A DNA stretch of 64,000 bases from Candidatus Saccharimonadota bacterium (GTDB taxonomy: Bacteria; Patescibacteriota; Saccharimonadia; Saccharimonadales; Saccharimonadaceae). Below the pieces are notes generated by a model. That model had not been told where the DNA came from. It worked only from the letters and a program-made list of their open reading frames with translations, and searched no databases. The DNA is taken from positions 1-64,000 of the forward strand of contig JAFRJK010000008.1 of NCBI GenBank assembly GCA_017432305.1. The letters are read 5' to 3'. Both the position numbers and the translations under genes were made by a program. Of the stretch, positions 31,827 to 33,656 are shown piece after piece (positions within the stretch are counted from its first letter, which is position 1; the number at the start of each line of letters is the position of its first letter).

Positions 31827-32213
31827 ATGCCGATTATTAAATCTGCTAAGAAAGCCGCTCGCCAAGCGGAAAAACGCACAGCTAGAAACGTGCAAATCAA
31901 GAAAACTATTAAGGCAGCTCTTAAAGCTTTCAAAGCGAAACCGACTGCCGAGAATCTTTCTAAAGCACAATCTGAATATGATAAAGCTGCGAAAAAAGGT
32001 CTAATTAAGAAAAATACCGCATCTCGCCGAAAAGCTGCGCTCGCTAAAATCGCAAAAGCGAAAAACGTTAAACCAGCTAAAAAGGCGACGAAGCCAGCTA
32101 CAAAAGCTGCTTCGAAAGCTCCAGCAAAGAAGACTGTCGCTAAAAAATCCGCTCCAGCAAAAAAAGCTGCTCCAAAAAAGACTGCAACTAAAAAAGCTAC
32201 CGCTAAGAAATAA
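31827..32213 (+). CDS. rpsT: Ribosomal protein S20 with a Lys/Ala-rich C-terminal tail
   Basis: Residues 1-83 are a normal S20 (KSAKKAARQAEKR start, three-helix bundle) that binds 16S rRNA. Residues 84-128 are an added tail of alternating Lys, Ala, Pro and Thr (APAKK, PKKTATKK), like histone H1 tails. The tail may bind RNA or DNA. A TATAAT near 31774 and an AAGGA RBS precede it, and a clear terminator follows. Confidence 0.95.
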   Translation: MPIIKSAKKAARQAEKRTARNVQIKKTIKAALKAFKAKPTAENLSKAQSEYDKAAKKGLIKKNTASRRKAALAKIAKAKNVKPAKKATKPATKAASKAPAKKTVAKKSAPAKKAAPKKTATKKATAKK

Positions 32214-32243: not shown

Positions 32244-32257
32244 CTTGCTCTGTAGTA

Positions 32258-32492
32258 TTTTTGGAGGGGTGGGATTTATTATCGTAGTTTCGGTCAGATT
32301 ATGGGCCGGAATACCACTGCTCATTTCGCTACATTGAGAGGCTTAGGCTATGACGGAGCTATTTATGCTAATGATCTCCATACTATGGTAGATAATAGCC
32401 GTACAGGAGCTATATGGATACCAGGAGATTTAATGAAAGGAGCCGGAGAATTCATCCGTTGCACAACGAATATTAAATCCCCATCCCCGTAA
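32258..32492 (+). pseudogene. Orphan variable-module copy A (lectin-like/FISUMP-type), + strand
   Basis: This open stretch has no start codon at its head, RBS or promoter and begins inside a domain with FWRGGIYY. It then shows GQIMGR, DGAIYAN, TGAIW, GDLMKGAGEF and IRCTT. It aligns end to end, with one gap, with copy B on the opposite strand; about a third of positions are identical and the rest are diverged. The pattern (aromatic start, G-R centre, A-Y-N, final G-F-IRC) matches the C-terminal 'major paralogous' domains that end many CPR prepilin-like surface proteins. I read it as a silent module, not a gene. Confidence 0.5.
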
Positions 32493-32681
32493 GTACCCAG
32501 CGTTAGGTAAAATAGCAGTTGTATGTACTCCGCCTACTATTTGCATGCGTGTATTTAAGTATGCCGCATTTTCATCTGAACTAGCAATAGACGTCCACCA
32601 TCGCCCAATATCGTCTCTACCCCAAATCCGACCTAGCTGTTCTGGAACATAACCCCCACCCCTCCAAAAATCCAACGGAGC
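32430..32681 (-). pseudogene. Orphan variable-module copy B (lectin-like/FISUMP-type), - strand
   Basis: Minus-strand open frame starting LDFWRGGGYV, then LGRIWGRDD, GRWWTSIASSDENAAYLN, NAGYLRGWGF and IRCATDE, with a stop at 32430. GRWWTS and ENAAYL fit the YWSS...NAYYL core of FISUMP-type domains, more closely than copy A. It lacks any upstream secretion region or RBS. Its end overlaps the end of copy A through a shared near-palindrome (CGTTGCACAACG, 32458-32469). The two heads, 32258-32273 and 32655-32670, are exact inverted 16-mers placed symmetrically around that centre. Confidence 0.55.
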
Positions 32682-32718
32682 TTATTTTAATATAGGATTA
32701 CTTTATTTATTAGTGTTC

Positions 32719-32760
32719 TATTGGATTTTTGGAGGAGTTGGTTTTATCTCCGTATCTGTT
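32719..32760 (+). pseudogene. Truncated third module head upstream of mutM
   Basis: The sequence reads LDFWRSWFYLRI in the same frame as the module heads and shares ATTTTTGGAGG with them. Homology fades after about 14 codons, where the mutM promoter (TATAAT, 32760-32765) begins. A head fragment left by recombination is the simplest reading. Confidence 0.4.
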
Positions 32761-32771
32761 ATAATAGACTT

Positions 32772-33656
32772 ATGCCAGAGTTGCCGGAAGTTGAAACAAT
32801 TCGTCGTGGGCTTGAGAGTTTTATTAAAAATGCAAAAATCACAAAGGTAGAAGTTCTTTGTGGCAAATCTTTTATTGGCCCGAAAGAACTCGTCGAAGGC
32901 CAAAAAATCAAGGCTTTTCGCCGAAAAGGGAAAGCGCTCCTTCTCGACCTCGAGAATGGCATTACAATGATGGTCCACCTTCGTATGACCGGTCAACTCA
33001 TTTTCCGAAAAACCGGTTCGAAAAGTACTAACGATTCTTTTGCTGGTGGTCACCCGACCGACTCATTTTTAAACGAACTTCCCGATAACCAAACTCGCGT
33101 GATTTTTGAGCTCGAAAACGGAAAACTCTATTTTAACGACCAACGAAAATTTGGTTTTATTAAAGTCCTTGAAACTCTAGAAGTAGAAAACGACAAATTC
33201 ATCAAATCACTCGCAAAAGAACCTTGGGAAATGAGCGAAAAAGAATTTGAAGAAAACTTAATGCGTCACAAATCTGCACCGATAAAAGCGACAATTTTAG
33301 ACCAAAAAGTCATTGCTGGGCTCGGAAATATTTATGCCGACGAAGCACTTTTTTACGCAAAAATCCATCCAAAACGCAAAACTGGGAGCCTGACGAAAGC
33401 TGAAATTAGAAAGCTCCTCGAAGGGGCTAAGTCTGTGATGGAAGCGAGCATTAACTCTGGTGGTTCGACGATGAAAACTTATGTAAAGGCAGACGGGACA
33501 AAAGGTGATTACTTGAGGCTTTTTGCGAAAGTTTTTCGGCGTGAAGGCGAACCTTGTGAAAAATGTGGAGCTGAAATTATAAAAATTCGTGTTGCTGGAC
33601 GTGGAACTCATATTTGCCCGAACTGCCAAAAACTCGTCGAAAAGGAGCGAAAATGA
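32772..33656 (+). CDS. mutM: Formamidopyrimidine-DNA glycosylase
   Basis: It removes 8-oxoguanine and nicks the DNA. 294 aa from the ATG at 32772; the mature N-terminus PELPEVETIRRGL carries the catalytic Pro and Glu. Other signs are the helix-two-turn-helix with LGNIYADEALF and a C-terminal zinc finger of CEKCG plus CPNCQ. TATAAT (32760-32765) ends 6 nt before the ATG, so the mRNA is predicted leaderless. It is linked to the next gene by an ATGA overlap. Confidence 0.97.
   Translation: MPELPEVETIRRGLESFIKNAKITKVEVLCGKSFIGPKELVEGQKIKAFRRKGKALLLDLENGITMMVHLRMTGQLIFRKTGSKSTNDSFAGGHPTDSFLNELPDNQTRVIFELENGKLYFNDQRKFGFIKVLETLEVENDKFIKSLAKEPWEMSEKEFEENLMRHKSAPIKATILDQKVIAGLGNIYADEALFYAKIHPKRKTGSLTKAEIRKLLEGAKSVMEASINSGGSTMKTYVKADGTKGDYLRLFAKVFRREGEPCEKCGAEIIKIRVAGRGTHICPNCQKLVEKERK

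Follow-up and report, generated by a model that had tools for sequence, protein, structure and literature searches.

Silent variable-region cassettes, very probably derived from a diversity-generating retroelement, dispersed through a Saccharimonadota genome

Diversity-generating retroelements (DGRs) are thought to overwrite their target, so that earlier solutions are lost. In the shufflon of R64 pilV, alternative C-terminal coding segments lie in opposition, meet tail-to-tail and are flanked by a short conserved head in inverted copies. Patescibacteria commonly carry DGRs (PMC8144416). For DGR homing, a hairpin or cruciform immediately downstream of the variable repeat is required (PMC3240598). 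The silent cassettes of Borrelia vls form contiguous arrays and are ~90% identical to vlsE (PMC11499132). In the literature covered, which was partial, we found no description of dispersed silent variable-region (VR) cassettes or of a DGR joined with silent-cassette variation.

The locus described here lies in a window consisting of the whole 64,000-nucleotide stretch that was analysed (positions 1-64000 of contig C7) of a focal genome (G000) of 747,863 bases in 8 contigs. Between rpsT, which encodes ribosomal protein S20 (31827-32213, + strand), and a mutM-like DNA glycosylase gene (32772-33656, + strand), and after the rpsT terminator, two putatively silent VR cassettes meet tail-to-tail. 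Copy A (32259-32462, + strand) runs from an invariant head, TTTTGGAGGGGTGGG, which encodes FWRGG, to an IRC tail and has no start codon; copy B (32463-32669) occupies the opposite strand. Both frames are open, copy A reading FWRGGIYYRS...IRCTTN and copy B LDFWRGGGYVP...IRCATD. An earlier note on this DNA had described the 16-bp heads as exact inverted repeats, and the head TTTTTGGAGGGGTGGG at 32258-32273 is indeed exactly repeated in inverse orientation at 32655-32670, within 33-nt arms that are 85% complementary. It had also placed at the centre a near-palindrome encoding IRC on both strands, which is found at the junction of the two tails (ATCCGTTGC / ACAACGAAT, 32454-32471). The exact symmetry that it claimed is off by one codon: copy A is shorter than copy B from head to IRC (204 nt vs 207 nt), so that the midpoint of the heads lies at 32464 and that of the palindrome at 32462.5. 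Its statement that the copies lack starts agrees with the finding that neither head has an ATG or a ribosome site, the TTG of the Leu codon being a possible start for the frame of copy B.

The 5' part of the copy A head is a degenerate 12-bp sequence (GCTCTGTAGTAT, 32247-32258, + strand) with an in-frame stop, a TAG immediately upstream of the copy. It is the counterpart of GCTCCGTTGGAT, which forms the 5' part of the copy B head (32670-32681, - strand) and equals the 12 bp that precede the VR of the expressed gene discussed below; with the invariant head included, copy B and that gene are identical over 27 bp in all. Beyond copy B lie a head-to-head spacer (32682-32714) and, just before the mutM promoter region, what is left of a third, truncated cassette, its decayed head TTTTGGAGGAGTTGG (32727-32741, + strand). 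Copy B and a cassette on another contig (C3:8470-8715) are preceded by the same 60 bp (100% identity), while their interiors are only 42% identical. In the relatives G034 and G027 the rpsT-mutM gene order is kept without cassettes between the two genes.

The focal genome contains ~108 such start-less cassettes in ~27 clusters, a number obtained from a search with copy B (107 matches) by adding a few profile extras and subtracting the template and the expressed copy. The exact 16-bp head occurs 103 times in the focal genome (52 forward, 51 reverse) and 0 times in the 173 other genomes of the genus, and a reversed control pattern gave 0 matches, so the head cannot be ascribed to chance. Searching a wider genome collection for the 16-mer was uninformative, the matches falling in unrelated organisms, and a 21-mer had no match in viral contigs. 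All of the clusters are intergenic, each sitting between predicted genes as judged by ORF length only. Among neighbouring cassettes, 38 pairs stand head-to-head, mostly separated by 35-55 bp, 32 stand tail-to-tail and usually overlap, and 4 are in tandem; 70 of the 74 pairs are thus inverted (p = 1e-16), and 60 of 100 tails in the genome take part in palindromic tail-to-tail junctions. As far as can be read from their sequences, the cassettes are silent and promoterless, and as spare copies of one domain they take up ~3% of a 0.75-Mb genome. The cassettes themselves had no match in Pfam, a profile search of the PDB returned nothing below E = 0.5, and the predicted structure of copy B folded alone was uninformative (pLDDT 37).

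Several focal contigs begin or finish within cassettes, which identifies these as points where the assembly breaks, and because contigs break at VRs the expression site had to be assembled from two contig ends, those of C8 and C5, which overlap by 72 bp. The end of C8 carries the start of the gene through ...GAPLDFWRGG..., and the beginning of C5 carries the remainder, ending in IRCVARQ-stop. The resulting gene encodes 564 aa, with a hydrophobic TM-like N-terminus, a FISUMP domain (TIGR02145 above cut-off, residues 412-561) and the cassette module as its C-terminus; its start, ribosome site and length indicate that it is probably expressed, and its product is a membrane-anchored surface protein. 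On C5 the VR end of this gene is followed by an accessory ORF, a reverse transcriptase gene (C5:1279-2406; PF00078 above cut-off, YVDD motif) and, on the other strand, an AAC-rich, non-coding template repeat (TR; C5:2843-3045). The reverse transcriptase is the only RVT_1 (PF00078) match in the focal genome. The expressed VR differs from the TR at 20 positions, 17 of which are TR adenines, and an inverted repeat, GCGCCAGTAGTGGCGC, can be read directly after the VR. Judged by its organisation and by the TR/VR context, the locus appears to be a complete DGR. It resembles the DGRs of the Bordetella phage BPP-1 type and those of patescibacteria (PMC8144416) in the reverse transcriptase, the TR with AAC codons, the adenine-specific differences, the accessory ORF, the C-terminal VR of a surface protein and the common sequence with an inverted repeat after the VR. 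Contigs C6 and C8 end in the same 141 bp (C6:36058-36198, C8:10716-10856), a sequence that covers the start of the expressed VR together with 57 bp upstream of it; this suggests that the current VR variant occurs at a second site, or else reflects the assembly graph.

A comparison of the dispersed cassettes with the TR separates two of them from the others. For cassette C7:66324, a near-pure adenine derivative, the mismatch with the TR is 37% at adenines and 6% at other bases; for C7:66767 the values are 56% and 12%, and in both of these cassettes the TR-like interior stands behind an ordinary cassette head. The remaining focal cassettes mismatch at ~60% of adenines and ~49% of other bases, so that recent copying from the present template does not account for most of them; the figure at other bases also rules out that every focal cassette derives from it directly. 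The columns that correspond to AAC/AAT (AAY) codons of the TR are nevertheless the most variable ones among 100 old cassettes (mean entropy 3.65 vs 2.62, p = 4e-6), and from this variability, together with the situation in relatives, we infer a DGR origin for most of the focal cassettes. The start of the cassettes has the sequence of the target gene (LD, TTTT), unlike that of the template (EV, GTTT).

A related reverse transcriptase is present in 94 of the 174 genomes of the genus. The nearest relatives by this protein, G027 and G119, have a VR and a TR and no library of the focal cassette family, and other congeneric species carry libraries of their own kind. When dispersed cassettes were compared with the TR of their own genome, adenines were mismatched at 50% in G011, 42% in G022, 45% in G089 and 39% in G096, and other bases at 3-7%, 8-12%, 6-10% and 17-23%, respectively (p < 1e-68 for each genome; odds ratios 2.5-19). 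The dispersed cassettes of these four genomes, and C7:66324 of the focal genome, are accordingly DGR products. G089 has two cassette pairs that agree completely over a unit of ~200 bp although their surroundings are unrelated, and further cassettes are near-identical or mosaic. The unit extends from (CCTCTC)AACTTTC to GGTACGGGAGGGGTGA, reaching the stop codon beyond the end of template homology, and its edges come from the target gene and are absent from the TR; the unit of G022 likewise includes ~30 bp of upstream sequence not in the template. It follows from these edges that the cassettes copy the variable unit of the target gene, not raw template cDNA. The expressed VR of G089 has an exact run of 55 bp, with 6 mutated adenine sites, in common with cassettes at two loci and differs from those cassettes 5' of the run, which stops at a contig end and so may be longer.

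Several features of the relatives stand apart from this comparison. At its two edges the G089 unit has 7-bp inverted repeats (CCTCTCA / TGAGAGG), not seen in G000 or G022, which are possibly the terminal repeats of a mobile unit or a coincidence. In G096 there are long direct tandem arrays of ~10-20 VR-like cassettes in one orientation (C19:13284-18743 and C51:323-3671), and some cassettes have a long target gene as their tail-to-tail partner (C41, C23, C5). Inversion next to the target genes on C41 and C23 was considered and rejected, the tail-to-tail partners having no homologous heads in common, and the long direct arrays of G096, with the mixed orders of G022 and G089, dispose of tail-to-tail order as a family-wide rule. 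G030 has at least 11 dispersed cassettes and no detected DGR reverse transcriptase, and is possibly a library that lost its writer. Many domain matches in G132 and G098 fall inside long open frames, which suggests DGRs with many expressed targets.

The expressed gene ending in the same domain, the further silent copies (~106 more) and the reverse transcriptase with a template repeat, for which the earlier note had proposed searching, are thus all present in the genome. Of the two origins that it offered, products of a DGR are borne out by the adenine-specific differences in the four relatives and in the focal expressed VR. For silent donor cassettes, the copies exist as described, and donation itself is only suggested, by the mutated 55-bp segment in one relative.

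The focal cassettes are ancient yet constrained. Their synonymous positions are saturated, yet only 2 of their 6,411 codons are stops, where shuffling of codon positions within columns predicts 157, and five head codons are nearly invariant at the nucleotide level across 100 cassettes. In G022 and G089, whose cassettes are for the most part young, with mismatches at non-adenines mostly of 0-15%, N/S at adenine-free codons is 0.08-0.41, and it is 0.08-0.16 in the old cassettes. Part of this coding constraint could stem from selection on the expressed gene before copying. The edges and the contents of the cassettes have had different histories: the 60-bp upstream flanks are at least 90% identical in 56 cassette pairs, 12 of them at 100%, and the interiors of the same pairs are 30-50% identical, the same as in unrelated pairs, so that interiors must have been replaced or diversified between fixed edges. 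Long segments are held in common, with the remainder unlike, by C3:8470 and C5:62317, C1:77748 and C3:29348, and C2:66152 and C7:88306; no pair of identical cassettes was found in the focal genome. Five unlinked cassettes (C1:104523, C3:9294, C4:33058, C5:61861 and C7:108145) agree almost completely over the 60 bp upstream, where there is a terminator-like inverted repeat (AAAAAGTAAGTAAACTTACTTTTT), and have unrelated interiors.

These properties bear on what the cassettes are for. It is unlikely that they are accidental copies of DGR variable regions, comparable to retro-pseudogenes, without function and intact only because they are recent. The missing start codons, the decay of the truncated third head in the window and the youth of most G022 and G089 cassettes would all be expected of such by-products, but saturated synonymous positions next to so few stops in the focal genome, the low N/S of the old cassettes in the two relatives, the near invariance of the heads and the turnover of interiors behind identical flanks argue against recent and functionless copies. 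The geometry of the pairs brings to mind the R64 pilV shufflon, which likewise has opposed C-terminal coding segments meeting tail-to-tail and inverted copies of a short head. The pairs could then be units of a site-specific recombinase that acts on the heads, units that are inverted or exchanged and so switch the expressed C-terminus; the excess of inverted neighbours, the invariant head, the uncoupling of flanks from interiors, which conservative shuffling would produce, and the 27-bp head that the expressed gene has in common with copy B all fit. We nonetheless hold this to be distinctly unlikely: the expression site shows no invertible arrangement, the expressed VR being followed by the accessory ORF with no inverted partner or segment; the cassettes are dispersed over the whole genome, unlike the segments of the shufflon, so that inversions would be huge; and cassettes in G022, G089 and G096 do not follow the alternating order.

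A further proposal would make the cassettes additional DGR targets, rewritten in place by virtue of an IRC/IMH-like tail and a palindrome, with the tail-to-tail junction serving as the hairpin. The structure required for DGR homing (PMC3240598) gives this some appeal, as do the perfect stems of at least 6 bp in 57% of tails (6% in shuffles) and the TR-like interiors behind ordinary heads in C7:66324 and C7:66767. It is very improbable, however, given that only 9 of 40 unpaired tails have a stem of at least 6 bp and that most focal interiors are unlike the present TR. The scarcity of palindromes in unpaired tails also means that the junction hairpin is not a general rule, and a hairpin after every tail is ruled out.

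That the two modules of the window are silent VR cassettes derived from a DGR we regard as close to certain; that such cassettes also act as an archive and as donors exchanging with the expressed gene, the explanation taken as a whole, appears probable, with real room for doubt. In the proposed mechanism, the DGR reverse transcriptase would copy the AAC-rich TR with mutations at adenines, and the mutated copy would be written into the expressed VR. Units of VR sequence, ~200 bp long and with sharp edges (the invariant head and the IRC tail, both from the target gene) would be copied into intergenic spaces, where they would be kept in frame and swap content between fixed flanks. From there, recombination at the identical heads and tails would most likely bring them back into the expressed gene, and the library would thereby serve as a heritable archive of binding-domain variants. 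The data establish the library itself, the DGR by its organisation, the adenine bias, the constraint on coding, the turnover of interiors and, in one relative, copying from locus to locus. The archive or donor function, the direction of exchange and the mode of dispersal are what we infer here, and the copying of a silent cassette into an expressed gene is suggested by the 55-bp run in G089. Several observations count against this explanation: the focal expressed VR looks as if written directly from the TR, with no cassette segment visible in it; most focal cassettes are far from the present TR even at non-adenines; identical pairs are absent from the focal genome; and neither the heads, at 15-27 bp, nor the tails are long by the standards of RecA or ordinary homologous recombination. 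Candidates for the moving process are conversion at heads and tails, uptake of related DNA, DGR rewriting of silent copies and a recombinase acting on the heads. A complete cycle of writing, archiving and reading, in which the reverse transcriptase makes variants, successful ones are archived as silent cassettes and recombination returns old ones, is tentative, and we would put it a little short of an even chance.

Compared with the described systems, the locus would combine features of two. Ordinary DGRs have one or a few VRs, each in an expressed gene, and here there are ~108 silent intergenic copies. With Borrelia vls and Neisseria pilS it has in common one expression site and many promoterless, in-frame variable-domain cassettes with conserved ends, diversity held in silent copies, and mosaic sharing. 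It differs from both in that new variants appear to come from a mutagenic reverse transcriptase and in that gene conversion is only surmised here, and from vls in that the focal cassettes are dispersed and far more divergent, vs the contiguous vls arrays. We describe it as a putative DGR that is novel in having a dispersed silent library, one that may work like silent-cassette variation, and do not claim gene conversion.

A genome-wide, in-frame library of past VRs would give DGRs a memory, and it would join two fields that have been separate, those of DGRs and of silent-cassette antigenic variation. The cassettes account for assembly breaks at VRs, which would hide the phenomenon from routine annotation. 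Separate libraries also occur in several congeneric species, which opens the idea to a test by comparison of populations. If true, the cycle of writing, archiving and reading would provide a very small bacterium with a heritable memory of its recognition specificities.
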